From Anadara kagoshimensis (Eukaryota; Mollusca; Bivalvia; Arcoida; Arcidae): 64,000 bases of DNA. Below, in pieces: positions 20,225-57,310 of this stretch. Location of the stretch: the NCBI GenBank assembly GCA_021292105.1, contig CM037868.1:34537523-34601522 (forward strand). The letters run 5' to 3'. A program made the position numbers and the translations under genes. Numbering within the stretch: position 1 is the stretch's first letter; every line of letters starts with the position of its first letter. The notes beneath the pieces were generated by a model, which worked only from the letters and a program-made list of their open reading frames with translations, was not told the origin of the DNA and made no database searches.

Positions 20225-21346
20225 TACTTAGTTTTTTGTCATATTGTAAATGTTCAATTATGCAGGACGAGAATACAAAGAGAACAAAGAACTGAATTCT
20301 GAAGGGTTAATCCAAACCTTAAATTAAAACATGTACCGGTATTACATTTCCTGTTTAATTTCAGTACTAAGAGCAGGAGACAAAGAACTGTTTAGTGTTG
20401 CCATCAAACTGAAATCCATAAGTTAGTCCAAACCTTGAATTAGAACACGTACCGGTATTACATTTCGCCACCGCTTAATTTCAGTACTATCACAGTTCTT
20501 TTTTCAAGGTTTTATCATATTGTAAATGTTTATTTGTGCAGGACGAGAGTATAAAAACTATAAACAGTCAGTTGGTGTCAACACCAAACTGAATTCCCAA
20601 AGGTTGATCCAAACTTAAAATTAAAACACATATTGGATTTTCCACTTGATTTGCACTTTATCAAAACTCTTTTATTAGGTATTATCATGTTGTAAATGTT
20701 CACTTTTGCAGGACAAGAGCAGGAGACAACGCATCGGACGTCAGTGTGGCCATTAAATTAAACATAAATTTGTTTAAACCTTGAATTAAAATACTTACAG
20801 ACATTGGCATTTCCCGCTTAATTTCAGTACCATCACAATTTTTTGTTTAAGCTTTTATCATATTGTATATGTTCATTTGTGTGGGGCAAGAGCAGGAGAC
20901 AAAAAATCGGTCAGGTCGCCATCAAACTGAATTCCAAACGGTTGAATGCAAAAATTGAGTTAAAACACATAAGGTTTTCTACTTGATTGGAGTCTCATTC
21001 TTTACTCTTTGTTTAGGGTTTTATCATATTGTAAATGTTCACTTTTGCAGGATAGGAGTATGAAACAAACAATCTGTCACTGTTATCATCAAACTGAATT
21101 CCACAAGGTCTGCCCAAACATTGAATCAAAACATTTATTAAATTTGACACTCGATAGGAATCTTATTTCAATTCTTTATTTAAGGTTTTATCATATTGTA
21201 AATGTTCACTTTTGCAGGATAGGAGTATGAAACAAACAATCTGTCACTGTTATCATCAAACTGAATTCCACAAGGTCTGCCCAAACATTGAATCAAAACA
21301 TTTATTAAATTTGACACTCGATAGGAATCTTATTTCAATTCTTTAT
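20225..21346 (-). repeat. Echo array of the TRIM-A 3' end (tandem last-blade copies)
   Basis: Downstream of the TRIM-A stop codon the minus strand repeats the sequence for the last ~30 codons plus 3' UTR. The two nearest copies (about 21182-21346 and 21015-21181) are 165-167 bases each and nearly identical to the gene's own end; at least four older copies follow near 20880, 20690, 20510 and 20240. Each carries TTTTATCATATTGTAAATGT, the complement of the codons for NIYNMIK. The newest copies create plus-strand shadow frames. Confidence 0.85.
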
Positions 21347-23305
21347 CTAAGGTTTTATCATATTGTAAATGTTCACTTTTGCAGGATAAGAGTATGAAAC
21401 AAACAATCTGTCACTGTTATCATCAAACTGAATTCCACAAGGCCGGTCTAATTCTGTAAGTAGGATCCTTATCAAAACCCCCTCTGATGATAACTGAATC
21501 ACATTTCCTGATGATTGTCCAGCAATATAAACATTCCCCTCCCTGTCTGATGTTACACCACGTGGATTCCGTAACTCAGGATGTGTGAATTTCTGAACCT
21601 CTTGTAGGTCTCTGGATCTCACAAAGTGACAAGAGTGACTGTTGTAGTTAGTGTAAACAATCTTTCTCTCTCCGTAATTAACGATAGTTACACCTACTAT
21701 AGCACCGTTTGTGTTGATTTCCTTCTCTTTCTTTCCATCTTTATCTAATATCAAAAGTGTGTTGCTACATTCGACATAAAGTTTGTCGTCACTACTAGTT
21801 ATACCATAACACGAGGCACCTAATGATTCTGTTTTCTTTACTGTTAGTGTTGGAATGTTTATGTAGTCAATAGCATTGTCATTGCATCGTGTTACCACCG
21901 CAGTAGTGGGATCAATCATACAGACATCATACACCAAACCTGATAAGTCACCACTTTGTTTGATCAAGTCACCTTTACTTTTAAATAAAGCAAGTCTCTT
22001 TGAAGCGTATAATGGTAATAGTAATGTGTTATCTGGCATAAAACATCCCCCATAAAGCCATGTATCAACTCCATATTTGTCTTTGATAGAAAAAGAAGAC
22101 ACAAGTTCAGGCATGCATTCTTTTAAATTCATTTTCACTGGTTTTGGGTACTTTGCAGCAGATACACTCACTCTCTCTGTGACATCTATCTGCCCAACAG
22201 TCTGTAACTCCGTAATCAACTTTTGAACGTCGCCATTCAATCTAAACTCGTACTCAATTATTTTATGTTTTGCCTGTATTTGTTCCAATTCTGTCATTTG
22301 CTCTTTTTCTTGTTCTAATATTTTCTTCATTTCTAAAAACATTTGAGGCTCACTTGAATGTGTTCTGCATGTTTCCATCATATTCATACAATTTTCTACA
22401 ATTTTGTTCCTGTTCTCTATGTCCTCAATGGAACTGGTCAGTTCTTGTACTCTTTGGTTGTGTTTTTGTGTAAGCTCTTGAAAAAAATTCGAAAGCAACT
22501 TATCAAATTTATCAATGATCCTCTGTCTTGTATCTTGTAATTCTTTCTCAATAGCTGTCTTCTGGTCTTCCAATGTTTTGATTATCCCCCTTTTATCGTT
22601 GATGAGATCTTGATTTAAAACACTGGTATCTTTCAAGCGTTGTAACAGGTCGACAAGATCTTTGGAATCTAGAACCCCATTGGCTGCCTCTTCAAGCGTT
22701 GTAACCTGATCACACTTCCGGTGATGTATGGTTATACACGTTGTGCAACATGGTTGGTTATGGTCCATGCAAAAAGCCTCTATACTCTTACCTCTGTGAT
22801 TTTCACACATCATATTCGACGTTATCAAAGGAATGACCGACATTTCTTCTATATTTTTCAAAATGTGGTATCTTGATATTTTTTGATTCTTGTGGACAGA
22901 TGCGCATACCTGACAAAACGCTTCGTTACATTCTAAACACCAACTTACTGCTGTGACATCATGATCCATCGATTTACAAGGATCACAAAGTTTTACTTTC
23001 GCTTTCAGTTTATTTTGATCCATCAACGAAACTATCGTATGATTTAACGGAAATTGTTTGGCCCACTCATTATGGTTAACCTCTGGATCTGGAGGTGTTG
23101 CCGGCCGTCTACAGACAGGACAGTTGAATTGGGATTTTTCAACTTTATTTTCACTTTCACTTTTAAAAGCGGAGATTATATACGAGTTAAGACAAGTCTC
23201 ACAAAAGTTATGAAGACATGGAAGACATTTTGGTGTTTTAAATTCCTCCAGACATATAGGACACGTAGTTATATCAATATCTTTTGTTGGTTTTGATAAA
23301 GCCAT
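21347..23305 (-). CDS. TRIM-A: RING/B-box/coiled-coil/NHL-like propeller protein
   Basis: This is a single coding exon of 652 codons. The frame is open upstream to 23353, but I choose the ATG at 23305 because all four paralogues share MALSKPTKDIDI from that point. The RING is C3HC4 (C15, C18, C30, H32, C35, C38, C62, C65). B-box 1 has C107, C110, C123, C126, C131, C134; B-box 2 has C167, H170, C179, H182, C187, C190. A heptad-like, Glu/Lys-rich coiled coil spans about 211-385. The C-terminal 240 residues look like a beta-propeller, with a clear NHL-type repeat (GVTSDREGNVYIAGQSSG) at about 580. Likely a ubiquitin ligase of the TRIM2/3/56/71-like architecture; bivalve expansions of this class have been proposed to act in immunity. 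Head to head with TRIM-C; its closest relative is TRIM-B. Confidence 0.92.
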   Translation of the reverse strand: MALSKPTKDIDITTCPICLEEFKTPKCLPCLHNFCETCLNSYIISAFKSESENKVEKSQFNCPVCRRPATPPDPEVNHNEWAKQFPLNHTIVSLMDQNKLKAKVKLCDPCKSMDHDVTAVSWCLECNEAFCQVCASVHKNQKISRYHILKNIEEMSVIPLITSNMMCENHRGKSIEAFCMDHNQPCCTTCITIHHRKCDQVTTLEEAANGVLDSKDLVDLLQRLKDTSVLNQDLINDKRGIIKTLEDQKTAIEKELQDTRQRIIDKFDKLLSNFFQELTQKHNQRVQELTSSIEDIENRNKIVENCMNMMETCRTHSSEPQMFLEMKKILEQEKEQMTELEQIQAKHKIIEYEFRLNGDVQKLITELQTVGQIDVTERVSVSAAKYPKPVKMNLKECMPELVSSFSIKDKYGVDTWLYGGCFMPDNTLLLPLYASKRLALFKSKGDLIKQSGDLSGLVYDVCMIDPTTAVVTRCNDNAIDYINIPTLTVKKTESLGASCYGITSSDDKLYVECSNTLLILDKDGKKEKEINTNGAIVGVTIVNYGERKIVYTNYNSHSCHFVRSRDLQEVQKFTHPELRNPRGVTSDREGNVYIAGQSSGNVIQLSSEGVLIRILLTELDRPCGIQFDDNSDRLFVSYSYPAKVNIYNMIKP

Positions 23306-25369
23306 TGCTATCACATGACTTCTTATACTGTCATATATGCGTAATATTGACAAATTATATCACTCAACAAACCTCATCTTGATCAATCAATGTCATTGTT
23401 TCAATGTTTTAAATCTAGTTTATAATATGTTGCCATATAACACGGTAAATACACACTACACATACCGTAATACTAACAATGAGCTCTTTTCATACCTTGT
23501 AGTTCTTTGGCGATAGTTCAATCAATGTGAACTTTGTCACCAAGGGAGATAATTAGCAATATTTTTTAAGTGTTAGCTTTCCAAAAAAGAGAACGAATCG
23601 TTGTTGCTATGACACAAAATTGAAATTTAGATAAAACGAGGCAATTTCATTTCATGTATGTTTTAATGATTATTCAGCCACACTTCTTGAAATTTGAACT
23701 CGATGTCGTGCTAAATTTCCCCAAGAATAATAACAAAACAGTAGATCCTGAATAAACTGTACACGTATTTTAGACTTTGTATGTATTCTCCATTTGGATG
23801 GAAATAATAAATAGGGTTTTCATGTATCGAAGAAAAATAGTCAGCAACATAAATAGATAAATATATAAATACGTTTAACACCTTTACATACGAGTTCAGC
23901 TCCATGTACCCAGCGTTATCCATAAGATTCAAAATTGAATGACTTGACTGAATTCGATTTATAATTTTTTATGTCCCAGTCAAGATTCTATCTTCTTTTT
24001 TAAAGCCAAAGAAGAGACCGTTCCCAAATAAACATACAGATATTTAGTTGAGATTTTAGTACTTAATAATCCTAAATTTATGTCTCGGTCAAGATTTTTG
24101 TTTTTGTTTTTTTTTCTTGTTTTTTTTTTTTTTTTTTGTTAAATCTGTAGAAGAGTCTGTCGCCAAATAAGTATACATATATATACTTAATTATATTCAC
24201 ATGTGATGATTGTCGCTAGCTAAGCTGGAGATAATTTGCAAGTTTTCAAAGTTTTTTACTTCTGTGATTGTGAATTGTGTTTGTGTCATAATGACCATGC
24301 CACGTTGTCAGTTACCCAGTGGTCAGTCATCGATAGCTCTTGGTAACGAGGTTTGTGAAATTTACATGGAAGAGTTATTCCGCCTGATCATTATACAATA
24401 TTTTTGCAGTCGAGTATTGGCACAGAAACAAAATTAATCTGTTTGGCGGTGGATCCGCTTTGATCTCAATCCATGGATATTTTTTTTTCAAAAAGATAGT
24501 GTGTGTATTCGAAATGTGTGAAGGTAGACAATTTCTTGCAGTTTTAAGGCCAAGAAAGATCAAGTGGCCCAGTTCCCAAATAGTACCTCTAAAACATTTG
24601 TTGCTTATATTAAGCGGTACAGCTGCTTAAATCTTATTGGTACAACCAATATGTAATTGAAAATTAGTAAATGTGCTGCAAAAAAATTCTTAAAATATAT
24701 GTTTTATCCCTAGTAAATTGGTACGCGGGATCCGGGTAAGGTTCAAATAATCACAAAAAGTAACAACGTGCTTAGCATGTGGCACACGGCGTGACTATCA
24801 CACAACAACGGCCAATGAAATAATACGATAATTACAAGTTATAAAATGAAATGAAAGTACCGGATATGAAAAATAGTTTAAATTAACAACATATAGCAAG
24901 TATTACCCCATAAACAGTTTTACACGAAAGAAAAACGATAAGATATAAGTAAGGTAACTATAAAGTGTACCTATGAACTCGCGGTAATTAGAAATATATA
25001 TATATGTTAAAATATAAAAAATGAGATACCAAGCGTGACATAAATAAAACAATCACCGAAACTTTAATTTATTCAGCAACTACTACACACAGCAACTTAA
25101 ATTGATTTCGTATGCAAGTTTAGAATGTGGCCCCATGCCGCAAGTCTGACAGACAACTTCCATCTGTTTACAACTTAGATTATTTTTCGACATTTATGGT
25201 CAATGGTTAAAGTTAAAAGCGGAGGTACCCAAAGTAAGTAGTACATGTAGCTCACAAATTTCTTGTCATACGACTATTTTAATATATAGGATAACTTCAA
25301 ATGACATACCGGGTTATAGCTGTATGATGACATAATGACAGCAATATACCTGCTTCTCCTGCTTATGGT

Positions 25370-25785
25370 GTATGTTTTTCCCAATTAATACGCTATGGTA
25401 GAGCTTGTTCCCACTACAGGGACTTTTTTCAACAAAGTAAGCTGCTTGCAAATAAATTGTTGACCCAGGGATATTGCAAGCCTAGGCTTATCAAGGACTT
25501 CAAAAAGTTTTATGGCCGTCATCACAGTATTGTTGATAAGTTTGATGTCTCTGTGTCCAGGATTGCCCTTGATATATTTGACGTCTCATAGTTCTATGTT
25601 TCTTTCACACAATTTTGATTACACGTGGAGGTAAACAGGAGGTGCTTACCCTTCCGGAACACCCGACCTCACTTCCCTGGTGGAAAGTTCATGTGTCTAA
25701 CCTAGCTTGTCAGTTCCAAAGTTTTTACTTTGCTTCTGGATTGTGATTCGGACATGAATTAGTATGTTTGTTTTTGATAAGTGAT
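25370..25785 (+). repeat. Long copy of the CCTTCCGGAACACCCGACC repeat family
   Basis: It begins near GGTGTATGTTTTTCCCAATT, runs through GGTAGAGCTTGTTCCCACTA and GTTTGATGTCTCTGTGTCC, and ends GGATTGTGATTCGGACATGA. It matches 34095-34525. It lies in the part of unit 1 that has no counterpart in unit 2, so it was inserted after the duplication or lost from unit 2. Confidence 0.75.
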
Positions 25786-26099
25786 AAAAGTTTCATTTAA
25801 AGTTTGCGTGAACTGTGAGTGGTAAAACAAATGATGAAATTTACAAAAAAATAGCTCAATATAAATGATAAGGAAATGTTGAACAGGCTATAAAACTCGT
25901 GTTAAACGTTATTATCAAGCACTTTTGAGGGATTACCTACTATTTTATAAGATGCAATTCATACTGAAATTAAAACCACTTAAGTAGCTCAGTTGGCAGA
26001 GTGTTCGTTCTTATCTTGGTGAAGTAGTGTGTTTGTTTAGTGTTGCGGAGCCGCCATAGGTACCGGAACTGCTAGTATCTTTCAGGTATCGGGGATCAC

Positions 26100-26435
26100 A
26101 CTGAGAATAGACGTTCTGTTTCTTTGCCCTCTGTTGGTAGAATGTTTGCTTTGCTAGTGGGTAAGTGTGGGTTTGAACCCCGACCGGGTTTGAACCAAGA
26201 CATGAAAGTGGATAGTGATTGTTCTTTCGTCAAGCACTCGGCAATACGAAACGAAATCAACGGTTCTTTCGGATGGGAACTTAACATAAACAAGGTCCCT
26301 TGTAACGGTAGGAGTGGCACAATAACGAATCATGCTGAATAATGAACAGGAAAAATTTCTTTACCTGCTATAACTGGCGACGTCTCGATATAAGTGAAAA
26401 GCCATTGATTGGGACATTAAACACCATTCTAACAT
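26100..26435 (+). repeat. tRNA-headed SINE, unit 1 copy upstream of TRIM-C
   Basis: The head has GGGTTTGAACCCCGACCGGG as B box; the body runs through TCAAGCACTCGGCAATACGA, GGTTCTTTCGGATGGGAACT and ATAACTGGCGACGTCTCGAT, and ends TTGGGACATTAAACACCATT. The counterpart in unit 2 is at 48010-48335. Confidence 0.75.
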
Positions 26436-26939
26436 AGCCCGGCTCTTCTTTCATATAAAATATATGAAGAGAGCCAGTCGTGGTAAAATAATCGATAACC
26501 CGTTGCTGTTCAGTATTTGTGACATTTATGTTTTCAGAGCACTAAGTCCCGCCTTCTTTGACGCCATTTTATCACTTCAACGAATTTAGACACGACTTCT
26601 TTGACGTTACAATATAGAAAGGAAACCAAAATCAGACTTAACGAGATGTTAAAGGGTCATGCTTGTTTACTGAAATGTAAACGTTATTTTTGTCAATAAG
26701 TTTATGTAAGAAAAAAAACCAGGGATTGTAAATGTTCTTCTATAAATAAATTAAATTAAACCGTGAATTGTTTCATGGTATTTGATGACCTTGTTATGAG
26801 TATGTGAAATTTAATATAACCATATAATGTGTGCAATTTTTAAATGTTATTCAAATGCTGAATTATGGCTCTAGTTAATCAGGAAACACTAGATTATGTT
26901 TTATACAAAACTTTCATTTGAAAAGAAATACTAAAATGT

Positions 26940-27900
26940 GCATGATTTTTTGGAAAGCTATTACTTACCAAGCATGTGTTATTATCTCCCTTTGCAATGT
27001 TCATGTTTTTTTTGTTTATAAAACAATAACTTTATTGTTTTATATTAACAATTATATATCATTATATTTTATATACTGAAATCCATTTTAAAAGTAAAAC
27101 AAAGAGGTGTGTTTTTGGAAACCTATGACTATTAATTAAAAAAAGTTTTGTTTATTATCTCCCTTGGTAATGGCCATGTTGTTTAATTGAGGTATACTTT
27201 GGAACATGAATGGACAGGTTTACGACTATCCCGGTATGTTAAAATTTCAATGTATTAAGTGCAATTGTTTATTGACATTTCAATGCTAATTAATCAAGAT
27301 TTAATACAAAAATTCATTTTAACAGTAAGCAAAAAGAATGTTTTTGAAAGCTATCACTATTACTTAAATAAAGATATGTGTATTATCTCCCTTGACAATG
27401 GTCATGTTGTCTATGGGGGTATACTTCGGAACATGAATGGACTCTTTTTTGACTATTCGGGTATGTAAAAAAAATTAAATGTAATGTGGACAATTTTCAA
27501 TGATATCCCAATGCTGATTAATTAAGAAACAATAGATTATGTTTTATAAAAAAAATCTTTTAAAAGTAAAGCAAACTTTTTTTGGAAAGCTATTACTTAC
27601 AACAGATTTGTTTATTATCTCCCTTAGCAATGGTCGTTATTGACCGGTGTATGGCTATTCGGTAATGTCTTAATTTAAGTGTAATGTGTACGATTCTTCA
27701 ATGATATTCCGATGCTGAAATATGAAATTTACAGGAAGTAATTGATTAGTATTTATACAACAAATATTTAAATGTGAATGTTTTTTGGAAAGCTATTACT
27801 TACAAAATATTGGTAAATTATCTCCCTTGGCAACTGTCATGTGATATGGTGTTAGTTATCAGGACATTATTGGGCTTGTTTATGATTATTCGGGTATGTT
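26940..27900 (+). promoter_or_regulatory. Five-copy upstream cassette array of TRIM-C
   Basis: TTATCTCCCTT occurs at 26992, 27155, 27383, 27615 and 27818, spaced 163 to 232 bases. Copies also carry an upstream GGAAAGCTATTACTTAC or similar, and several a downstream ATGGTCATGTTG, GGTATACTTCGGAACAT and ACTATTCGGGTATGTTAAAA. The same cassettes precede TRIM-D and a reverse-oriented single copy precedes TRIM-A and TRIM-B. The position suggests tandemly amplified regulatory sequence, but the TTATCTCCCTT word is also common in mollusc repeats, so a regulatory role is inference. Confidence 0.5.
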
Positions 27901-28056
27901 AAAATTTTGAATTTTACTTGTACATTTATTCAATGTTACTAATAAGTGAGAGGAAATGGCTACATAAAAAAGATATTGATATAACTGTGTGGCAAAGAGG
28001 CTTAACTAATCGCTTGTGTCGACAAGATATCCTGGCCAGATATAAGAGATGCAGCA

Positions 28057-30018
28057 ATGGCTTTATCAAAACCAACAAAAGATATCGATATAACTATGTG
28101 TCCTATTTGTCTGGAGGAGTTTAAAACACCAAAAAGTCTTCCATGTCTTCATAATTTCTGTGAGACATGTCTAAACTCGTATATAATATCCGCCTTCAAA
28201 AGCGAAAGTGAAAACAAAGTTGGAAAATCCAAATTTAACTGTCCTGTTTGTAGACGTCCGGTAACGCCCCCAGACCAAACTGAAGAACATCAAGAATGGG
28301 CTAAACAATTTCCGTTAAATCATACGATAGTTTCGTTGATGGATCAAAATAAACTGAAAGCGAAAGTAAAGCTCTGTGATCCTTGTAAATCGATTGATGA
28401 TGACGTCATTGCTGAAACATGGTGTTTAAACTGCAATGAAGCCATGTGCCAATTGTGTAGTTCTCTACACAAGAGACAAAAATTTTCGAGAGACCATGAT
28501 TTGATAAATATAGCAGAAATGCAAACCATACCATTGATAACATCATTACATGCCTGTAGAAATCACAAAGGAAAGAGTGTTGAGGCATTTTGCAAAGACC
28601 ATAACCTGCCATGCTGTGCAACGTGCGTAGCAATTCACCATCGTAAGTGTGATCATGTGATGACACTCGAAGAGGCGGCTGATGGAATACTTGAATCCAA
28701 AGATCTTTCGGATCTGTTAGAACGCTTGAGAGGTACCAGTGCCATAAACCAGAAGATTGTCAGCGAGAAAAGGGAGAACATCAAGAAATTAGAAGATCAA
28801 AAATCTGATATTGAGAAAGAATTGCAAGCGACAAGACAGAGGATCATAGATAGCTTTGATAAGTTGCAATCGACGTTTATGCAAACGTTTACACAAAAAC
28901 ATAATCAAAAAGTGAAGGAACTAACCAACTCTATAAATGACATAGAGAATAGAGACAAAGTTATACAGAACTGTGCCGATCTAATGGAAACGTGTAAAAC
29001 GTGTTCCAGTGAAACTCAAGTGTTCTTAGAAATGACAACTATATTGGAGACAGAAAAAGAAGAGGCCGAAGCGTTAAAATGTATGCTAGCGGAACACAAA
29101 AAAGCTGAATATGCGTTCAGGATAGATGACGAAATTACCAAATTGGCAAGAGGCTTCGACCGGTTTGCAAAGATAGAAATTGTAGAGGAATCAAATTCAA
29201 GTATTGAGAATTACCCAAGATCGGTCAGCAACGTTAACCTCAAAGAATGTGTACCTGAGCTAGTATCTTCATTCTCCATTAAAGAAAAATTTGGAGTTGA
29301 TTCCGCTGTTTATGGGATTTCTTGTTTGCCAGACAACAAATTATTAATACCACTCTTTTATGGTAATAGATTAGCAGTCTTTAATACAAATGGAGACCTC
29401 TTACAACAGAGTGGAGAATTAGCAAACATGTTAGACGTGACTGTTCTTGATTCGAGTACAGCAGTATCAACACAAGGTGGTTGTTGTACAACGATAGCTT
29501 ACATAAACATTCCAACACTAACAATCAATAAAACAGTATCAGTAGGTAGTAGTTGTTATGGGATAGCAAGTAGTGACAACAAACTTTATGTCGGATGTAG
29601 TGACAAACTTTTGATATTAGATAAAGATGGAAACAAAGAGAAGGAAATCAACACAAAAGGAGGAATATATGGTGTAACTATCATTAATCATAGAGAGAAA
29701 AAGATTGTCTATACAAACTACAGCAGTAATTCCTGTCACTTTGTTAGATCCAGTGACCTACAAGAGGTTCAGAAATTCACACATCCTGAGTTACAGAATC
29801 CACGTGGCGTAACATCAGATAGGGAGGGCAATGTTTATACTGCTGGACAATCATCAGGAAATGTGTTTCAGTTATCATCAGAGGGAGTTTTCATAAGGAT
29901 CCTACTTACAGGATTAGACACACCTTTTCGAATTCAGTTTGATGATAAGAGTGACAGGTTTTTTGTTTCATACTCCAAACCTGCGATAATTAACATTTAC
30001 AATATGATAAAACTCTAA
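28057..30018 (+). CDS. TRIM-C: RING/B-box/coiled-coil/NHL-like propeller protein
   Basis: This is a single coding exon of 653 codons from ATG 28057. Domain spacing is the same as TRIM-A: RING C15, C18, C30, H32, C35, C38, C62, C65; B-box 1 C107 to C134; B-box 2 C167, H170, C179, H182, C187, C190; coiled coil about 211-385; propeller to the end with GVTSDREGNVYTAGQSSG. It differs from A/B throughout the linker and coiled coil (for example QTEEHQEW instead of PEVNHNEW, and LCSSLHKRQK in B-box 1), so it is a distinct paralogue class shared with TRIM-D. All zinc ligands are intact. Its own last residues (TPFRIQFDDKSD...PAIINIYNMIKL) differ from the copies echoed downstream. Confidence 0.92.
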   Translation: MALSKPTKDIDITMCPICLEEFKTPKSLPCLHNFCETCLNSYIISAFKSESENKVGKSKFNCPVCRRPVTPPDQTEEHQEWAKQFPLNHTIVSLMDQNKLKAKVKLCDPCKSIDDDVIAETWCLNCNEAMCQLCSSLHKRQKFSRDHDLINIAEMQTIPLITSLHACRNHKGKSVEAFCKDHNLPCCATCVAIHHRKCDHVMTLEEAADGILESKDLSDLLERLRGTSAINQKIVSEKRENIKKLEDQKSDIEKELQATRQRIIDSFDKLQSTFMQTFTQKHNQKVKELTNSINDIENRDKVIQNCADLMETCKTCSSETQVFLEMTTILETEKEEAEALKCMLAEHKKAEYAFRIDDEITKLARGFDRFAKIEIVEESNSSIENYPRSVSNVNLKECVPELVSSFSIKEKFGVDSAVYGISCLPDNKLLIPLFYGNRLAVFNTNGDLLQQSGELANMLDVTVLDSSTAVSTQGGCCTTIAYINIPTLTINKTVSVGSSCYGIASSDNKLYVGCSDKLLILDKDGNKEKEINTKGGIYGVTIINHREKKIVYTNYSSNSCHFVRSSDLQEVQKFTHPELQNPRGVTSDREGNVYTAGQSSGNVFQLSSEGVFIRILLTGLDTPFRIQFDDKSDRFFVSYSKPAIINIYNMIKL

Positions 30019-30059
30019 ACAATGAATTGAAATAAGATTCCTATCGAGTGGCAAATTTA

Positions 30060-31045: not shown

Positions 31046-31243
31046 GCAGTGTTTAAAAGTATCATTATACAAGTTAGAACATCGGGCTTTTTTTTTTTTT
31101 TTTTTTTTATTGAACCACGTGATTGATACATTTACAGGTCTTTACGATCTGACCTCATTGTCTTGTATATTATTATTATATATGTAAGATCTGAGGCATG
31201 TTCAAGTATAGGGCTATAACAATATACTGGTATGAAATGCCGA

Positions 31244-36060: not shown

Positions 36061-36104
36061 CACCCATGTTTATTCTATATTACATACTACTAATACTCTC
36101 TTGA

Positions 36105-37205: not shown

Positions 37206-37289
37206 TCTAAATACATATTGTATTAACTACTTGCTAACTCCCCGTGCACAAGTAGTAGTTTAATCTACAGAGTCCAAAACCGCACACAC

Positions 37290-38090: not shown

Positions 38091-38093
<3 letters not shown>

Positions 38094-44814: not shown

Positions 44815-44927
44815 GTAATAACGCGAATTGAAAGGCGTAATAACGCGAATTAAAAAGCGTCATAACGAGAATTGAAAGGCGTAATACGCAAATTGAAAGG
44901 GGTTATAACGCGAAATACTGTCGTACT

Positions 44928-46396: not shown

Positions 46397-46528
46397 AGAA
46401 ATAAGGCGTACGAACGCGAATTGAAAGGCGTTGTAACGCGAAATAAAGGCGTGTTAACGCAGATGCCTACAATAATGATGTGGAGGTCCTGGGGTTCAAT
46501 CTCTAACCCCTCTTTACATACATATTAA

Positions 46529-46530
<2 letters not shown>

Positions 46531-46576
<46 letters not shown>
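46531..46576. repeat. (GT)n microsatellite
   Basis: There are about 22 GT dinucleotides between the satellite and the right iterons of the foldback block. Confidence 0.97.
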
Positions 46577-48009
46577 ACAACTATATGTAATGTAATAAGC
46601 TGTTTTATATGTATTTATTCTATGAAAATTCAAAAACTGCACATCATCAATGAACATATTATTCAGTAAAACATAGTGAAAGGTTTCTTTTCAATGTTAA
46701 AGGTTTTTTTTCATAAAGTGTATCATTTTATTTATGGGGATGGAAATCTTTTAAGTAATCTGAAATATAAACATTGGCAATATACACATGGCTATTTATT
46801 AAAATGTTTCCTGTCCAATTGTCAATCGCTAACTTTTAACAATGATTAAATGACATTTGTGACATCTAAGTATGAAAAGATCAACGTTTAATCACTTGCA
46901 GTTGCCTTAAGCTGTTCAAACTAAAACCAATCTGTTTGTGGTGAGGGTGTTAACCTATGGAGAGAAACATTCTTCAGGGAAGTGACTGCTCTATATATGG
47001 AAAAAAAGGCATTATAACGCCTTTTTACTTCGCGTTAGTACGCCTTTTAATCCTTTCAATTAGCGTTATTACGCCTTCTAAATGTGTTATAATGCCTTCA
47101 TTTCGCGTTATATACATGTAACGCCTTTCAATTCGCATTATTACGCCTTTCTAAATGCGTTATAATGCCTTTATTTCGCGTTATTACGCCTTTATTTCGC
47201 GTTATTACGCCTTCTAATTCGCGTTATAATGTCTTTCAATTGGCGTTATTACGCCTTTCTAAATGCGTTATAATGCCTTTATTTCGCGTTATAACGCCTT
47301 TGAATTCGCGTTATAACGCCTTTTTTCGCATTATAACGCCTTTATTTTACGTAATTACGCTTTTCTTTTCTTTGCTCATGTGCTTAATAGGCTTTCGTAT
47401 TGTATAAACCAAAATCAGGTACATTCTTTGCGATGGTGATATTCAACAACTAGAATGTTGAATAACAAAATTATTTTTTTCCATCACGGCGTCGATGTCT
47501 ATGTAAATCGAGTTTGAAGCCAAATGTTTTCATTAAAATGGGAGAGAAACAATCCATTATAAGACTGTCGCAAGCCTCGTCTCTGACTGAGATGTTCAAT
47601 CCCTCAGGTGAGATTTCCCTATCCTACATGGATACTCATAATGGATTCTTATAATTTACTATATAGGATATTCTTCAATCACATAAGTGATCACAAAAGT
47701 TTCATTTTAAGGTTACGTGAAGTGCGAGTGGTAAATCAAATGACTACATTTACAAAAAAATATCACGATGTAAATTATAAGCAAATGTTGAAAAGGTTAT
47801 ACAACTCAAGTTCAATGTCATTATCAAGCACTTTTGAGGGATTGCCTACCATTTTAAAAGATGCAATCCATTCTGTAATTAAAACCACGTCATTGGCTCA
47901 GTTGGCAGAGTGTTTGCTCTTATCATAGTGAAATTGTTTGTTTTAGTGTTGCGGAGCCGCCATAGGTACCGAAACTGCTAGTATATTTCAGGAATCGGGG
48001 ATCACACTG

Positions 48010-48335
48010 AGAACAGACGTTCTATTTCTTTGCCCTCTCTGTTGGTAGAAATGTTTGCTTTGCTAGTAGGTAAGTGTGGGTTTGAACCCCGACCGGGTCT
48101 GACCCAAGACATGGAAGTGGATAGTCAAGCACTCGGCAATACGAAACGAAATCAACGGTTCTTTCGGATTGGAACTTAACATAAACGAGGTCCCTTGTAA
48201 CGGTAGGAGTGGCACGATAATTAATCATGCTGTATAATGAACAGGAAATATTTTTTCACCTACTATAACTGGCGAGGTCTCGATATAAGTGAAATTTCAT
48301 TGATTGGGACATTAAACACCATTCTAACATAGCCC
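48010..48335 (+). repeat. tRNA-headed SINE, unit 2 copy
   Basis: This is the counterpart of 26100-26435, with GGGTTTGAACCCCGACCGGG as B box. A 14-base stretch (TGACTGTTCTTTCG-like) is missing from the head-body junction, so it reads GGATAGTCAAGCACTCGGCA. Confidence 0.75.
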
Positions 48336-49756
48336 GGCTCTTCTTTCATATAAAATATATGAAGAGAGCCAGTCGTGGTAAAATAATCGATAACCCGTTG
48401 CTGTTCAGTATTTGTAACATTTATGTTTTCAGAGCACTAAGCCCCGCCTTCTTTGACGCCATTTTATCATTTCAACGAATTTAGACACGACTACTTTGAC
48501 GTTACAATAAAGAAAGGAACCCAAAATCAGACTTGAGAGGTTAAAGGGTCATGCTTGTTTACTGAAATGTAAACGTTATTTTTGTCAATTTTGTCAAAGT
48601 TAATTTAAGAAAAAATCAGGAATTGTAAATGTTATTGTATAAATAAAATAAAATAAAGCCTGGAATGTTCCATAGTATTTGATGACCTTGTTATGAATAT
48701 GTGAAATTTAATATAACCATAATGTGTGCAATTTTTAAATGTTATTCAAATGCTGAATTACGGCTCTAGTTAATCAGGAAACACTAGATTATGTTTTATA
48801 CAAAACTTTCATTTGAAAAGAAAGGCTAAACTGTGCATGATTTTTTGGAAAACTATTACTTACTATTGAACTATGTGTTATTATCTCCCTTTGCAATTAT
48901 TATCATGGTTTTTTTGTTATGTTACTTTATTGTATTATATTAACAATTATTTATAATTATATTTTATATACAAAAAACCCTTTTTAAAAGTAAAGCACAA
49001 AAGTGTTTTTGGAAACCTATGACTATTAATTAAAAAAAGTTTTGTTTATTATCTCCCTTGGTAATGGCCATATTGTTTTATTGAGGTATACTTCGGAACA
49101 TAAATTGACTGGTTTACAACTATTCGGGTATGTTAAATTCGAATGCATTAAGTGCAATTCAGTAGGATAGCCAAGTCCAAAATGTGCGTTGGTTTTAAAA
49201 TTTGAGACCTTCCGCGGTAAATAAAAAGGGATTACTTTTTGGCAAGTGTCTGAACCCGAAAAAAATTCGCCATTTTCAGAATCGTTTTTATACCAAAAAA
49301 ATAACATTTCTAGCTACGAATATGATGCAAGCGTGTGAGGAATTAATTAAACTTTCTACATGTATCAAAAAGTCCGAGATAAAACGCCACATTTACTTAA
49401 AATTACTGATATCCCGACGATAACCGATTTCTCTTGAAAATCAACAGAAATTTCTTCTCCATTTTTGAAACTGGTACGTTTTTTGTGTAAAGAATACTTT
49501 TCCTAGAAATTTTAATACAATGCCAGAAAATTATTATAGTTTACGCCTGTAAATTATCGTACCTGGTGCATGAGGGTTAAATATGCGAAAATTGCAAAAA
49601 TCCAACAGCATGATTTCAGTACGTCTTGTTGTCAATGAAAACAAATATGGCCGCGACCTTGATAAGCATTGTTCCAACGTAATGACGTAAACAACGTTTC
49701 TCCTGTCAAATATATAGGTCAACTGTCTACTGTATACACAGTACACGCGATGTACA

Positions 49757-49976
49757 GTACAGACCTGTCGAAAGTTTAACACTAAGCTAACCAAAAGAAG
49801 TCAAAGCTCGACTGCCGAGTGCCTAAGATATGGAAAGGTAGCGGTCGAAAAGCTGCTGAGAGATAGATGGCAACTGCTGTCGATATTTATAAACACCAAA
49901 CGAGGGACCAATATGGACTGTCGGCACTAATTCGTTAGCTGGATGCTAAACTTTGTACAGGTCTGTACTGTATTTA
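49757..49976. mobile_element. TACAGACCTGTC-family element nested in the TIR element
   Basis: The ends TACAGTACAGACCTGTCGAA and the complement-like TTTGTACAGGTCTGTACTGT bound 220 bases. The subterminal part reads GACTGCCGAGTGCCTAAGAT then ATGGAAAGGTAGCGGTCGAA, the recognisable precursor of the 51-bp satellite unit. Confidence 0.8.
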
Positions 49977-50059
49977 TCGATTTTTTTGCAACAGGCATCC
50001 TCATCTGGCACACATCATATGACGTGTTTGTTGATGGAGATACTTTAGGACCCCAACAG

Positions 50060-50161
50060 GAATAAATAAATAAATGATAAATAAATAAATAAATAAATAA
50101 GAAATTCTACAGAGAAATAAGTTAGAGCTGGGACACAGTATGTTGAGCAGGTTACAAAAAA

Positions 50162-50212
<51 letters not shown>

Positions 50213-50269
50213 CTCAGAAATTGTTCAGAGAAATAAGTTAGAACTGGGACACAATATTTCAGCAGTTAA

Positions 50270-50328
<59 letters not shown>

Positions 50329-50385
50329 GTAATTCTACAGAGAAATAAGTTAGAGCTGGGACACAATATGTCAGCAGTTAATAAT

Positions 50386-50416
<31 letters not shown>

Positions 50417-50463
50417 CTATAGAGAAATAAGTTAGAGCTGGGACACAATATGTCAGCAGTTAA

Positions 50464-50514
<51 letters not shown>

Positions 50515-50765
50515 GTAATTCTACAGAGAAATAAGTTAGAGCTGGGACACAATATGTCAGCAGTTAATAAATAAATAAATAAATAAGAAATTCTACAGAG
50601 AAATAAGTTAAAGCTGGGACACAGTATGTTGAGCAGGTTACAAAATGTCTAGCAGGTTAGAGATGATAATAAATGAAAATAAATAAATAAATAAATAAAT
50701 CAGACATTCTACAGAGAAATAAGTTAGAGCTGGGACACAGTATTTTGAGCATGTTAGTGATGATA
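50060..50765. repeat. Composite array of (AATA)n and a ~50-base spacer unit
   Basis: About seven copies of TTCTACAGAGAAATAAGTTA, GAGCTGGGACACAATATGTC, AGCAGTTAA alternate with runs of (AATA) of very different length (4 to 15 repeats). It is entirely inside the TIR element. Confidence 0.9.
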
Positions 50766-53240
50766 AATAGGGTAAATACATAAAAAGAGATCCAAATAAG
50801 TTGCATTTTGTCTTTCCTCAAGGTACTAACATGAAATGTGGCATGGCTACCATGGAAAGTAACCTCAGATATTTTTTGGAAAAATAAAACAAATATTTTT
50901 ATATGAACAAAATTAACATTTAAAAAATAAAAGATATTGAATTACTAAAAAGTTAAAAAAAATTATGAACAGGCAGATAGTTAGAAATTTTGTCATACTG
51001 TTGTTTGTTAAATGAATGACAAGTGGGCCATAATAGCATTTAAAAGGACTAAAATTGTCTAAATTATCAAATTTAATTTAGAAACTACACAAACAGGTGA
51101 TTATATGGGGGGGGGGGTACTTTCTAGTTGTTCTGGCTGTGATAAATAGATAAATCATTTACAAATAGATCAATGGGATCATATGGCAGTGTTCATTCTA
51201 GAAAGGGGCTGTTGATCCTTTATTTTGCCAAATGGCACCGTTGTAAAGGCCATAGTGGGCCACATTTGAAATTAGATTTCAAATGCAAGTTCAAAATATT
51301 TGATAACATTGTCATATATGAAAGCTACATTATATGAAACTTTTAAATACTTCATTACAAAAGCTTTTACATCAGCCTAAAAGACTACAAGTCACATCAA
51401 ACATTAGATGTATGCAAAATTATTGATGTTAATCAACTTATTAGAGGAATTTTATTAGAAATGAACCCATCTGAAAAAATCCTAGAATGAACACTCATGG
51501 TTATTACTGTTTACACAAAGTGGAACATTTTTCAAAGAAAAATGCATTATGTGTGACTAAACCAACTTTGTAAATTGTAATCATGTTGAATGTCTCATTT
51601 TATGTAAAATTAAAACATAACATTTATGAATGTTTCATTTTATATAGAATTAAAAAATCAACAAAATATCAATATCCTTAACATACTGGGAATTTTATAC
51701 CATAACACATATATGAATTGAATGCTTCTCTTGATACTGAATACCTCTTTTTTTCACCACATGAAATGCTTTTCATGCACCCCTATCTGAAGTGTAGCAT
51801 ACAGGTAACAGCATAGGTTAAAATCTTACTATGTAAGAAAGTTTGCCAGTTCTCTTGTTGAGTGGTGTAGCCTAACTATTTTGAGTTTGGGGCCAGCTCA
51901 CTTCATAAAAGAATTTGTAACAGTAATAAATGGCTTAAATGTGTAAACATTAAGTGACCCACACTCGATTTAGAAGCCATTGGCTACTGGGCCCCTGCAA
52001 ATCTTCATCCCTGTACCTAGTTCCCCCCCTTAATCTCATTTACCTGATTATAATTGAAATACTAGTAATCTTGAATGGAGTGTGTATACCAACCAATCAA
52101 TTCTAAATTCAACTGATAAATCAATAAATCTGGAATAGGCCTAGTGTATTACAATTATTTTAAATTCTTTCAAACTAATAATGCCCATTTGGATACACTG
52201 TGTCAAGAATTTCACTGCATTTGCATAAACTTATTTCTTAATGTTATTATAAAACCAGTTCCCATGAATTTTCCTGAAAGAAGGTGATATTTATTTATCG
52301 GAATTTTACAATTTTACAGAAACTACTGAAATTTCTAAATATTTTACAGATCTGTATTTAAACATTATAATATGGAGTTAAATTTTTAACCAAGTCAAAT
52401 GAAATCCACATGATTGGTATTCACTTTTCCTATTTCCTACTTCCACATAGTCTATTTTAAATGTTATTTGTGATATGTCAAGTTGACTTAAAACTTTTAA
52501 TGAAGCAAAATAATCAACTTTTCATGTCTAAATTGTACTAAAATAATAATGCCGGGGTTATTGGCATCAGAACAGAAACAAAAATTTAAATAATAAAGAC
52601 CAATCTTGTGTTGACTCTGGCTAAACTAACATGGGAGATGTTTCCTCATTTTGGGAAATATTTCATAAAGAAAAATCCAGTCTAACCCTCTTTAATGATG
52701 TTACCTTATTTATCCAATGATATGTACTGATATGACAGACAGGTTCTGTTTATTTTTTGCCAACAAAGCAAAATCAGTTGGTAATTTTCAGTAATTCTGA
52801 GTCCCTAACTAGCCCTACATGAGCAGGTTGCACTGTACACTGTATTGGTACAGATCCCGAGTCCATATGGGTAAAATTAGAACACATGCGTATCTAATGT
52901 GTTCGACAGCCATGCAGATCGATCATACATGACAAATAAGGCAAAAAAGCTTGACTATTTTGTCCAAAATACACGATGACATTTTCTGCATGCTAAAATT
53001 GGGATCGAAGCGGGGCGAATGCTAATCAAATATGTCCGACTAGAAGTAGTTCCAAAAAATCGGCAGATTAGACGAGAAATGGGGTGAAAATACAATATTT
53101 TTAAGGAAAAACTTACTTTATTTCAACAAAAATATATCCACAGCGTCTCTCGATTATCAAATTTATACATTACATACAATAAGGAAGCTGTCTTAGCATT
53201 TTTTCTGTGTCAAATTAGCCGGAAAGGGGGCGGCCCATGA
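50766..53240. other. Interior of the TIR element, no recognised content
   Basis: AT-rich sequence with a G10 run at 51109-51118. No coding region and no repeat shared with the rest of the window that I can see. Confidence 0.5.
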
Positions 53241-54761
53241 TCGAGAATCCGGCAATGTCATCGATTTTTTCGACATTTGAAACTGGTACGTTTTTTGTGT
53301 AAAGAAAATTATTTGACAAATTATACATCAAAATAACCGTGAGAAAAAGTTATTTCCGTTCATGTAAAAACATCTTTGGTGCATGAGGAACTGTGTACAC
53401 AGAATGATATTTTTTAAAGTTTCAGTTTTCAATTTTTCGCCGGTGCCTAACATTCAATTACGATTTAAATTGTTAAATTCTCACCGACTTTGATAAAAAT
53501 CGTCTTTAATGACTTACTTTTGTCCTCAAAAGACGATAAAATACTACAAATAGTATTAAAAACTCGCAGTGAAATAAATATTATGTAATTTTACCGCCTC
53601 GAGTGAATTCAAATTTTTGACAATTTTTTCACTTTGTCTGCGCGTGAAATTTTGTTTGATGAATCAATGCGTTGGCCGGGTTGGCTATCCTACTGATTGT
53701 TTATTGACATTTCATTGCTAATTAATCAGGATTCAATACAAATTTTTTTTTTCACATTAAAGCAAAAACATTTTTTTGGAAAGCTATCACTATTACTTAA
53801 GTAAAGATTTGTTTATTATCTCCCTTGGCAATGGCCATGTTGTTTAATTGAAGTATACTCCGAAACATTAATGGATTGGTTTACGACTATGTTAAAGTTT
53901 AAATGTTTTGTTTCCGATTGTTCAATGATATTCTAATGCCGATTAATCGGGAAGCAATAGATAGTGTTTTATACATAAATTCATTTTAATTAAAAGCAAA
54001 AACGGAAAGCTAATTCTATTACTTACAAACTGTTGGTTAATTATCTCCTGTAGAAATAGTCATGTGGCGTGTTGTTTTATGGGGCCGGGGTATAATCCAG
54101 AACATTAATTGATTGTTTTTAACTATTCGGGTATGTAAAAAATTTAAATGTAATACAGGCCATTTTCAATGATATCCCAATGCTGATTAATCAAGAAACA
54201 ATAGATTATGTTTAATAAAAAATTATTTAAAAAGTAAAACAAAAAATTTTTGGAAAGCTATTACTTACAAAAGATTTGTTTATTATCTCCCTTGGCAATG
54301 GCCGTGGTATACTTCGGAACATTAATTGACAAGTGTATTGCTGTTTGGAAATGTTTAGATATAAGTGTATGCAATTCCGATGATATTCTGATGCTGAAAT
54401 ATGAAGTTATTAGGAAGTAATTAATAAGGATTATCATTTATACAAAAATTTAGTAAAAAAACAATGTTTAAATATGAATGCTTTTTTTGGAAAGCTATTA
54501 CTTACAAAAGATTGGTTAGTTATCTCCCTTGGCAATTGTCATGTGATATGGAGTTATATATCAGGACATTAATGGGCTGGTTTATAACTATTCGGGTATG
54601 TTAATATTTGGAATTTTACTTGTACATTTATTCAATGTTACTAATAAGTGAGAGGAAATGGCTACATAAAAAAGATATTGATATAACTTTGTGACAAAGA
54701 GGCTAAACTAATCACTTGTGTCGACAACATATCCTGGTCAGACCATATAAGAGATGCAGCA

Positions 54762-56723
54762 ATGGCTTTATCAAAACCAACAAAAGATATTGATATAACT
54801 ACGTGTCCTATTTGTCTGGAGGAGTTTAAAACACCAAAATGTCTTCCATGTCTTCATAATTTCTGTGAAACATGTCTAAACTCGTATATAATTACTGCCT
54901 TCAAAAGCGAAAGTGAAAGCAAAGTTGGGAAATTCCAATTCAACTGTCCTGTTTGTAGACGTGCGGTAACGCCCCCAGATCAAACTGATGAACATCAGGA
55001 ATGGGCCAAACAATTTCCGTTAAATCATACAATAGTTTCGTTGATGGATCAAAATAAACTGAAAGCGAAAGTAAAGCTCTGTGACCCTTGCAAATCGATT
55101 GCTGATGACGTCATTGCTGAAACATGGTGTATAAACTGCAATGAAGCCATGTGCCACTTGTGTAGTTCTCTACACAAGAGACAAAAACTTTCGAGAGACC
55201 ATGATTTGAAAAATATAGCAGACATGCAAACTATTCCATTGATAACATCATTACAGGCCTGTAGAAATCACAAAGAAAAGAGTGTTGAGGCATTTTGCAA
55301 GGACCATAACCTACCATGCTGTACAACGTGCGTAGCAATTCACCATCGTAAGTGTGATCATGTGATGACACTTGAAGAAGCAGCTGATGGAATACTTGAA
55401 TCCAAAGATCTTTCGGATCTATTAGAACGTCTGAGAGGTACCAGTGCCATAAACCAGAAGATTGTCAGCGAGAAAAGGGAGAACATCAAGAAATTGGAAG
55501 ATCAAAAATGTGATATTGAGAAAGACTTACAAGCGACAAGACAGAGGATCATAGATAGCTTCGATAAGATGTACTCGACGTTTATTCAGAAGTTAACACA
55601 AAAACACAACCAAAAAGTGAAGGAACTAACCAACTCTATAAATGACATAGAAAACAGAGACAAAGTTATACAGAACTGTGCCAATCTAATGGAAACGTGT
55701 AAAACGTGTTCCAGTGAAACTCAAATGTTCTTAGAAATGACAACTATATTGGAGAGAGAAAAAGAAGAGGTTAAAGTCTTAAAACTCATACTGGCGGAAC
55801 ACAAAAAAGCTGAATATGAGTTCAGAATGGACGACGAAATTACCAAATTGGCAAAAGGCTTTGACAGTTTTGCAGAGATAGAAATTGTGGAGGAATTAAA
55901 TTCTAGTATTGAGAATTACCCAAGAATGGGTGGCGGCGTTAACCTCAAAGAGAGCGTACCTGAGCTGACATCCTCATTCTCCATTAACGAAAAGTGTGGA
56001 GTAGATTCCGGTGTTTATGGGATTTCTTGTTTGTCAGACAACAAATTATTAATACCACTATTTCAGGGTAAAAAATTAGCAATCTTCAATAAAAATGGCG
56101 ACCTTTTACAACAGAGTGGAGAATTAGCAAACATGTTAGACGTGACTGTTCTTGATTCAAATACAGCAGTTTCGGCACAAGGTGGTAGTTGTAGAACGGT
56201 AGCTTACATAAACATTCCAACTCTAACAGTCAATAAAACAGTATCAGTAGGTAGTAGTTGTTATGGGATAGCAAGTAGTGACAACAAACTTTATGTCGGG
56301 TGTAGTAACAAACTTTTGATATTAGATAAACATGGAAACAAAGAGAAGGAAATCAACACAAATGGAGGAATACATGGTGTAACTATCATTAATCAGGGAG
56401 AGAAGAAGATTGTTTACACTAGCTACCACAATCACTCTTGTCACTTTGTTAGATTCAGTGACCTACAAGAGGTTCAGAAATTCAGACATCCTGAGTTACA
56501 GAATCCACGTGGTGTAACATCAGACAGGGAGGGCAATGTTTATATTGCTGGAGAATCATCAGGAAATGTGTTTCAGTTATCATCAGAGGGAGATTTCATA
56601 AGGATCCTACTTACAGGATTAGACAGACTTCTTAGAATTCAGTTTGATGATAAAAGTGACAGGTTTTTTGTCTCCTGTTCCAACCCTGCGACAATTAACA
56701 TTTACAATATGATAAAACAATAA
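54762..56723 (+). CDS. TRIM-D: RING/B-box/coiled-coil/NHL-like propeller protein
   Basis: This is a single coding exon of 653 codons from ATG 54762, with the same leader context (GAGATGCAGCA-ATG) as TRIM-C. All RING, B-box 1 and B-box 2 ligands are present at the positions given for TRIM-C. Coiled coil about 211-385, then the propeller with GVTSDREGNVYIAGESSG. Differences from TRIM-C lie in the coiled coil and propeller (for example IPLFQGKKLAIFNKNG against IPLFYGNRLAVFNTNG). It is intact despite the 4.5-kb insertion upstream. Likely a ubiquitin ligase with a ligand-binding propeller; target unknown. Confidence 0.92.
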   Translation: MALSKPTKDIDITTCPICLEEFKTPKCLPCLHNFCETCLNSYIITAFKSESESKVGKFQFNCPVCRRAVTPPDQTDEHQEWAKQFPLNHTIVSLMDQNKLKAKVKLCDPCKSIADDVIAETWCINCNEAMCHLCSSLHKRQKLSRDHDLKNIADMQTIPLITSLQACRNHKEKSVEAFCKDHNLPCCTTCVAIHHRKCDHVMTLEEAADGILESKDLSDLLERLRGTSAINQKIVSEKRENIKKLEDQKCDIEKDLQATRQRIIDSFDKMYSTFIQKLTQKHNQKVKELTNSINDIENRDKVIQNCANLMETCKTCSSETQMFLEMTTILEREKEEVKVLKLILAEHKKAEYEFRMDDEITKLAKGFDSFAEIEIVEELNSSIENYPRMGGGVNLKESVPELTSSFSINEKCGVDSGVYGISCLSDNKLLIPLFQGKKLAIFNKNGDLLQQSGELANMLDVTVLDSNTAVSAQGGSCRTVAYINIPTLTVNKTVSVGSSCYGIASSDNKLYVGCSNKLLILDKHGNKEKEINTNGGIHGVTIINQGEKKIVYTSYHNHSCHFVRFSDLQEVQKFRHPELQNPRGVTSDREGNVYIAGESSGNVFQLSSEGDFIRILLTGLDRLLRIQFDDKSDRFFVSCSNPATINIYNMIKQ

Positions 56724-56759
56724 ACAAAAAATTGAACTAAGATTCCTATCGAGTGGAAA

Positions 56760-57310
56760 ATTTAATACGTGTTTTGATTCAAGATTTGGACAGACATTGT
56801 GGAATTCAGTTTGATGACAAAAGTGACAGATTGTTTCTCTCCCGTTCCTATCCTGCAAAAGTTAACATTTACAATATGATAAACAAAGAATTGAAATAAG
56901 ATTCCATTCGAGCGGAATACAAATTTTTTCAAGGCGTGGGTCAACCGTTTGGAATTCAATTTGATGATAACAGTGACAGATTGTTTGTCTCCCGTTCCTA
57001 TCCTGCAAAAGTTAACAGTAACAATATGATAAACAAAGAATTGAAATAAAATTCTATTCGAGTGGAATACATATTTTGATTCAAGGCGTGGGTCAACCGA
57101 TTGTAATTCAGTTTTGTTGATACTATGACAAGTTTTTGGCAAATAATTGAAATAAGATTCTATTCGAGCGGAATATTTAATACATATTTTGATTCAAGGC
57201 GTGGGTTAACCGATTGTAATTCAGTTTGTTGATCAGTTGGACAAGCTTTTGGTATCATGTTCCTATCCTGCAAAAGTGAACATTTACAATGTGGTAAAAC
57301 CCTAAGCAGG
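56760..57310 (+). repeat. Echo array of the TRIM 3' end behind TRIM-D
   Basis: Four or so copies (about 56785-56890, 56935-57035, 57085-57140 and 57205-57305) of the last-blade segment with GGAATTCAGTTTGATGACAA, CCCGTTCCTATCCTGCAAAA and ACATTTACAATATGATAAA. The first reads ACAGATTGTTTCTCTCCCGT. This tail is shorter than that behind TRIM-C. Confidence 0.8.

Follow-up and report, generated by a model that had tools for sequence, protein, structure and literature searches.

Why should a gene carry, behind its own stop codon, a row of further copies of its own end? The question is raised by a 64-kb stretch of the Anadara kagoshimensis genome (hereafter the window; the source is one germline assembly of 1.115 Gb in 36 contigs), which holds four intronless TRIM genes, A to D, each a single open frame of 652-653 codons, and behind each of them a tail of short tandem units resembling the last propeller blade. 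We call these units echoes and number them outward from the gene (A1, A2 and so on); TRIM genes elsewhere in the assembly are referred to by locus number (L039-L093). The original prediction, made from this DNA alone, had offered two readings of the tails: a passive product of duplication, or a store of donor sequence from which gene conversion replaces the last blade. Here we report that the first reading is upheld and the second is not. Judging from sequence comparison, the tails are probably non-coding passengers of recurrent local tandem duplication combined with unequal and ectopic exchange.

The echo unit and its distribution in the genome

Tandem copies had been predicted behind all four stop codons, and all four tails are present. 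The tail of gene A (20200..21346, minus strand) holds 7 echoes and that of B (39748..41033, minus strand) holds 8, one 167-bp unit more than A; the tail of C (30019..31048, plus strand) has 7, including a duplicated two-unit block in which C2 and C3 resemble C5 and C6, and that of D (56724..57308, plus strand) has 4, three fewer than C. These counts were obtained by a profile search of the window, with truncated units counted and split matches joined by the analyst. E-values in the window reach 3e-53, and outside the gene ends and tails the profile gives only chance-level matches there (E 3.8 or more). The period is 167 bp in the A and B tails and 150-167 bp in the C and D tails, truncated units being shorter. 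The tails are not four independent cases: because the block with A and C recurs as the block with B and D, the window shows two tails, each twice. Those of A and B pair unit by unit (A2-B3 99%, A3-B4 99%, A4-B5 94%, A5-B6 86%, A6-B7 93%, A7-B8 98%; 86-99% for the older units).

The unit had been described as about 30 codons plus the 3' untranslated region (UTR). It is indeed a copy of the gene end, but its extent has to be redrawn, as the last part of the presumed UTR is decayed coding sequence, where GTTTTAATTCAAGGTTTGGACCAACC reads VLIQGLDQP; the same stretch stands in frame, with small changes, in genes L039-L047. The unit accordingly spans about one full last NHL blade (~40 codons), the stop codon and ~40 nt of UTR. 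Among the 26 window echoes, frame and stop are both intact only in A1, A2, B1-B3, C1 and C7. The frame survives without the original stop in C2, C4, C5, D1 and D2; in the remainder it is shifted or prematurely stopped, or the unit is truncated. Concerning the first two copies behind C, both predicted to be open to a stop, this holds for C1 (30084-30250), whereas C2, though open in frame, no longer has its original stop and terminates in NKEL. The further observation that C1 is nearer to the end of gene A than to that of gene C is confirmed (76/87 against 70/87). A splice-acceptor role of the echoes was considered and dropped: by eye, CAG precedes the blade only in A1, A2, B1-B3, C1 and D1, and most other window echoes read CAACC or are without that element.

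A genome DNA search with echo A1 gave 62 matches, all on a single contig (C12). The number is to be read as a lower bound, and diverged dispersed copies might have escaped the search. The matches comprise the four clusters of the window and 13 others, all of which were fetched, and each of the 13 sits at the end of a TRIM gene (L039-L051). Eleven of these genes (L039-L049) carry tails of 2-6 further units (6 in L045, 5 in L046, 3 in L047), while L050 and L051 match only through their own gene end. At least three tail-bearing genes (L042, L044, L046) are broken in frame, and their tails persist.

This distribution bears on the idea that a mobile or satellite repeat, such as a Helitron- or Helentron-borne array, captured the end of a TRIM gene. 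The tails are short-period arrays in a window rich in other arrays, and Crassostrea gigas Helentrons are reported to carry satellite-like arrays dispersed through the genome (PMC7492417, PMC8268682). The likeness to those arrays lies in the short tandem units; the difference is that the present unit is confined to one contig and to TRIM ends wherever the matches were read. A repeat dispersed without TRIM genes, which the original prediction had named as a refuting outcome, was looked for and not found, all 17 clusters lying at TRIM gene ends; other TRIM lineages, moreover, echo their own, different ends in units of different length. At the sensitivity of the search, a mobile origin of this unit is therefore extremely improbable.

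Selection on the array as such, for instance as a series of stops and poly(A) signals insulating crowded genes, would agree with the presence, in L039-L044 and A-D, of an AATAAA either across the stop or 40 nt downstream of it. Neither AATAAA nor ATTAAA is found within 70 nt behind the tail-bearing L045-L049, however, nor AATAAA within 1 kb behind L048 and L049, while the tail-less L050, L054 and L060 do have a signal, and the first echoes of A and B are no more conserved between the two loci than the ~1.4 kb of flank beyond the tail. We regard such a function as having very little chance of being correct. Purifying selection on the echoes was considered as well and set aside, because the identity between A and B in the first echoes continues into the flank and is hence uninformative.

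Decay of the copies in a clock-like manner without exchange, the other refuting outcome, is not what the data show. In a tree of the units, from which those spanning under 80 model positions were omitted, the units cluster by position inside subfamilies, mostly across duplicates, and the terminal units of C, D, L048 and L049 cluster together (88/90, not starred). Likeness within a locus exceeds likeness between units of the same place for A1, A2 and B1-B3 (coding part) and for L045_1 to L045_4. Copy number also varies between recent duplicates, as the tails of A and B (7 vs 8), of C and D (7 vs 4) and of L045, L046 and L047 (6, 5 and 3) illustrate.

Direction of copying and probable passage of the tail between loci

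If the echoes served as silent cassettes for replacing the last blade by gene conversion, as in pilS/pilE or vlsE, sequence should flow from tail to gene. Several features invite this reading: blade-length units adjoin the gene, some with an intact frame; gene end and first echoes did exchange behind A and B; C1 is nearer to gene A than to gene C; and the best last-blade match of one gene, L044, is an echo at another locus. The direction of copying was assessed in the 15 tail-bearing genes (A-D and L039-L049) by counting last-blade sites at which the gene agrees with one of its own echoes and differs from every chosen sister gene, or agrees with a sister and differs from all own echoes, with sisters picked by the analyst and own echoes with under 60 comparable sites left unranked. 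Ten sites support an own echo and 101 a sister gene. Gene ends that match echoes better than their paralogue, which the original prediction had proposed to look for, were not seen: in each of the 15 genes the best sister is at least as close as the best own echo, and no flow from tail to gene was detected in them. The VLIQGL-type blade start, common to all 52 classifiable echoes, has been adopted by none of the six genes A-D, L048 and L049, and the window echoes past the first ones are mostly shifted, stopped or without the original stop. A donor store is on these grounds very unlikely.

The opposite direction is visible behind A and B. In A1 (21281-21115) and A2 (21114-20949) the coding part is almost the same as the end of gene A; taken together, A1, A2 and B1-B3 match the A/B gene end at 98-99% identity in their coding part, yet they have a foreign blade start. 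Such hybrids would be expected from a crossover or conversion at the conserved GGAATTCAGTTTGATG core that copies the gene end into the tail, and the only clear copying direction is from gene end to echo. A3-A7 are decayed; A3 and A4 are nearest to the units of L039-L047, A5 ties between the two blade types described below, A3 and A6 read FDG and A4 reads FNG.

Two types of last blade are distinguished among 31 aligned genes. Type 1 reads RILLTGL...FDDxSD or near it and occurs in A-D and L048-L050, with RI(L/P)xT-like starts also in L054, L060 and the outgroup clade. Type 2 reads RVL(I/L)QGL...FD(G/V)DTD or near it in L039-L047, while L052 and L053 have RVLIRGL; RVL(I/L)(Q/R) starts are limited to these two sets of genes. 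The type 2 start is most simply regarded as derived, because the outgroups have type 1. Of the 54 echoes, 2 have no blade start and were set aside; all of the remaining 52 begin in the VLIQGL manner, including 24 that stand behind genes with a RILLTGL-type start.

The gene bodies group differently. In a tree of codons 1-400 (25 genes), a single clade of tail-bearers is rejected by the approximately unbiased (AU) test (log-likelihood 135 worse, p 5e-106). A and B are sister to the tail-less L050 (100/99; L050 aligned from codon 149 on), L039-L047 are sister to the tail-less L052/L053 (95/98), and C, D, L048 and L049 join the tail-less L054/L060 on codons 1-500 (100/100), although not clearly on codons 1-400. 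The foreign blade start of the echoes, together with a gene-body tree that splits the tail-bearers, suggests transfer of the tail between paralogues by ectopic exchange. In the simplest history the tail would have been born in the L039-L047 lineage and then passed to other loci.

Alternatively, the ancestor of the 20-gene clade may already have had a tail, which L050, L052/L053 and L054/L060 then lost, with no transfer at all. Such an ancestor would account for homologous units in all 15 tail-bearers, for the recognisably related sequence directly behind the stop and for the clustering of the terminal echoes of C/D with those of L048/L049 (88/90). It would, however, have to be of VLIQGL type, with reversal to RILLTGL in A-D, L048-L050, L054 and L060 and three losses besides; the 3' flanks of L050, L052 and L054 look, by eye, unrelated to the tail and to each other, and the tail-bearers diverge less over codons 501-604 than over most of the gene body. 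We consider an ancestral tail improbable and prefer transfer to a threefold loss.

The likeness of the tail-bearers along their codons was measured as synonymous p-distance. Between tail-bearers of different body clades it is 0.24 in codons 501-550 and 0.23 in codons 551-604 (56 pairs, 14 genes, L044 being omitted from the means). Tail-bearing versus tail-less genes give 0.49 and 0.43 across clades (44 pairs) and 0.49 and 0.40 within a clade (26 pairs), all pairs being related and thus non-independent. Divergence between C and A falls between codons 480 and 500 (from 48% through 18% to 13%), and that between A and L039-L047 falls after codon 400, at gene-specific places. Near codon 605 the likeness stops: the difference between A and L039-L047 is 24-36% for codons 605-625 and 13-20% for codons 626-652, and it amounts to 8-14 of the first 39 UTR sites. 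By these comparisons the last blade of A/B is of its own type, near L050, that of L039-L047 is of theirs, near L052/L053, and that of C, D, L048 and L049 is of the A/L050 type. The notion of the last blade as a divergent island between homogenised flanks was dropped, since the UTR behind it differs too. Exchange between loci did happen, and is visible as apparent transfer of the tail and as likeness upstream of the last blade.

Several observations weigh against this account of passenger tails and exchange. L049 has 4 echo-matching and 3 sister-matching sites, for which ancestral states suffice because A, B and L050 mostly share those residues. The best last-blade match of L044 is echo L047_1 (0.94 vs 0.93 for genes), and the blade of L050 reaches 0.92 with the A/B echoes and 0.90 with the A/B genes. 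Tail-bearers also have lower distances in codons 1-100 (0.29 vs 0.45) and 201-300 (0.42 vs 0.60), with no such lowering in codons 301-400 (0.76 vs 0.69), so the likeness is patchy and not restricted to the tail side. The tail-less L052/L053 stand at 0.23-0.31 from A, C and L039 in codons 551-604, which is the level of the tail-bearers, and are less alike in codons 501-550 (0.37-0.43). In AU tests on codons 490-609 (tree without L061, L064 and L065) none of the 7 groupings was rejected (p 0.26-0.44), and the conflict in these codons therefore rests on the distances of non-independent pairs. These comparisons single out no donor locus for codons 400-604.

Coding echoes at other TRIM gene ends and a proposed mechanism

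A protein search, in which only the best candidates were scored, listed 70 matches; the gene ends then read were the 14 of L052-L065 and 20 of distant genes with 30-34% identity (L074-L093). Altogether, 23 of the 51 TRIM 3' ends read echo their own coding sequence, namely all 4 in the window, 11 of the 13 in L039-L051, 3 of the 14 in L052-L065 and 5 of the 20 in L074-L093. The 51 ends are a non-random sample, 17 of them having been found through the echo itself, and the counts cover TRIM gene ends alone. The 167-bp tail was not found behind any of the 14 ends of L052-L065. Within that set, the gene end recurs as a decayed echo behind L055-L057, in a unit that is longer and measures several hundred bp. 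A 79-bp array follows directly on the stop in L054 and L060; that of L060 includes ~17 coding bases and was excluded from the coding-echo count. The distant genes with echoes of their own last blade are L079, L082, L086, L092 and L093. By a conservative hand count, independent origins probably number at least about six, of which L079 and L082 may share one. Expanded TRIM genes of a single animal have thus changed recurrently at their 3' end, by duplication of the last blade and stop.

The freshest example is L086, where at positions 116-498 the last blade, stop and UTR are repeated in tandem, perfectly over 190 bp, and TTT marks the point at which the two copies meet. This unit has 18 matching places genome-wide, 16 of them extending over at least 170 bases, and two adjacent copies occur only in L086; the duplicate may be of very recent date, a polymorphism or an error of assembly. 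Two other gene ends show variants of their own. In L057 (oriented 471-658) a 94-bp direct copy of the last 30 codons is fused in frame without UTR, which deletes the old stop and gives the new C-terminus MTKPALMDTV. L078 carries a 53-bp array (oriented from 303) of ~17 copies that begins at the stop codon and includes no other coding sequence.

As a control, 5' ends were read in 14 near genes (without L041) and in the 20 distant genes, L064 and L065 being read at the 3' end alone. A coding echo was found at none of the 20 distant 5' ends, against 5 of 20 at the 3' ends of the same genes (Fisher test by hand, two-sided p ~0.047); for tandem arrays of any kind the numbers are 7 of 20 3' flanks and 3 of 20 5' flanks. 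The 5' ends of C and D show 19-24 bp matches only. Copies at the 5' end are nonetheless not impossible, because L045-L047 carry a 54-62 bp echo of the start region (~-45 to +15), located ~105 to 45 bases before the start codon. With its period of ~59 bp, this upstream echo is a 5' counterpart of the tails.

The mechanism that we propose starts from what is observed: the units and their places, the changes in copy number, the foreign blade starts, the gene-to-echo hybrids and the fresh L086 duplicate with its 3-bp microhomology. In a first step, slippage or microhomology-mediated repair would copy the last blade, the stop and a short 3' UTR in tandem, a duplication tolerated because the gene stays intact; different unit lengths and flanks indicate that this would have happened independently in several TRIM-NHL lineages. 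One such event, in the L039-L047 clade with gene blades starting RVLIQGL or close to it, would have founded the 167-bp array, which would then have grown and shrunk through unequal exchange, as copy numbers differ between recent duplicates. In a third step, ectopic exchange between paralogues would have carried the tail into the A/B and C/D/L048/L049 loci, and exchange among these genes would also have made codons from about 400 or 490 to 604 alike. Finally, the recipient's gene end would have been copied over the first echoes behind A and B, for which we infer unequal crossover rather than conversion.

Whether the tails also take part in this exchange is a separate matter. They might provide long stretches of shared homology behind the stop, through which TRIM-NHL genes that have diverged elsewhere continue to recombine in their 3' halves, so that tail-bearers would form a pool shuffling propeller blades between RING/coiled-coil bodies, from which tail-less sisters would depart. 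There would then be a simple structural reason why some paralogues keep recombining while others diverge. We hold this to be unlikely; its probability is lowered by the likeness in codons 1-100 and 201-300 and by the share that L052/L053 have in it.

Known systems and the genomic setting of the tails

Silent-cassette conversion (pilS/pilE, vlsE, the chicken immunoglobulin pseudo-V segments) likewise involves partial gene copies beside an expressed gene. Here, in contrast, no donation to the gene was detected, the copies decay, and copying runs from gene to echo; no tracts derived from copies were detected in the 15 genes, and the frames are not open throughout the 26 window echoes. Partial tandem duplication and minisatellite growth proceed by slippage, microhomology repair and unequal exchange. 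The tails resemble such growth in their short head-to-tail units, copy-number change, hybrid units and microhomology at a fresh junction, but differ in that about the same boundary was taken repeatedly within one family and that one array was apparently passed between loci.

We know of no tail of partial copies in the FREP genes of Biomphalaria. These are likewise an immune gene family of a mollusc, in whose literature gene conversion is mentioned (PMC3313920 among others). Their diversification is described as somatic. The closest described case that we found is that of the NACHT-WD (NWD) genes of Podospora anserina (het-d/het-e family), in which WD repeats are reported to undergo concerted evolution (PMC1805685). 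Both are beta-propeller multigene families with variable unit number, whose units are exchanged within and between loci through unequal crossing-over or gene conversion; the fungal blades are reported to be in frame and to bear on recognition specificity, whereas the present units are placed after the stop codon, with no detected flow into the gene. Such tails behind TRIM genes were not found in the titles and abstract openings of the listed open-licence papers on TRIM genes and gene-end duplication. If the tails are passengers, they advise caution against calling partial copies near immune-type genes donor cassettes in the absence of a directional test.

Gene A (21347..23305, minus strand, 652 aa) comprises a RING, a B-box, a probable coiled coil and an NHL-type propeller; gene B (41034..42992, minus strand, 652 aa) is its duplicate. 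Gene C (28057..30018, plus strand, 653 aa) has its duplicate in gene D (54762..56723, plus strand, 653 aa). The Pfam models zf-RING_UBOX and zf-C3HC4 exceed their cut-offs in all four genes, as does the SBBP beta-propeller repeat; zf-B_box is above its cut-off in gene A and below it in B, C and D, and the NHL model made no appearance in the Pfam search of the four. The last 133 aa of gene A match the designed Pizza6/Pizza7 propellers and PknD (best E 5.6e-15) and, more weakly, the NHL domains of TRIM2/3/71. Gene A also aligns with the TIF1-beta and TRIM25 chains beyond the B-boxes, and a coiled coil probably lies between these and the propeller. With an N-terminal RING/B-box and a C-terminal NHL-type propeller, the four genes appear to be of the TRIM-NHL type.

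A and C with their tails lie in the left copy of a segmental duplication (16725..32651), and B and D with theirs in the right copy (35822..58902); both intervals are outer match limits, within which similarity is not continuous. A and B differ by ~5.6% within the gene (107 of 1900 sites); from the last blade outward, across the first echoes and as far as ~18.8 kb, the difference does not exceed ~1%, except for four 100-base steps of older echoes with 4-18%. The gene is accordingly more diverged than its flank (18800-21450 compared with ~38200-41140; ~5.6% in coding sequence, ~1% in the flank). Gene end, tail and flank of A and B moved jointly, either by recent block exchange or through a younger shared origin.

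Rfam models at gathering thresholds gave 0 matches in the whole window. A local 140-bp array differs between the two duplicate blocks, with 3.4 copies at 33110-33581 in the C block and ~1 copy at 58956-59095 in the D block. Many other tandem arrays, with units of 88, 33, 81 and 51 bp among others, occur at 3701-4842, 9827-10399, 11883-12504, 37290-37772, 44984-46404 and 62391-63222; tandem growth is generally common in the window.

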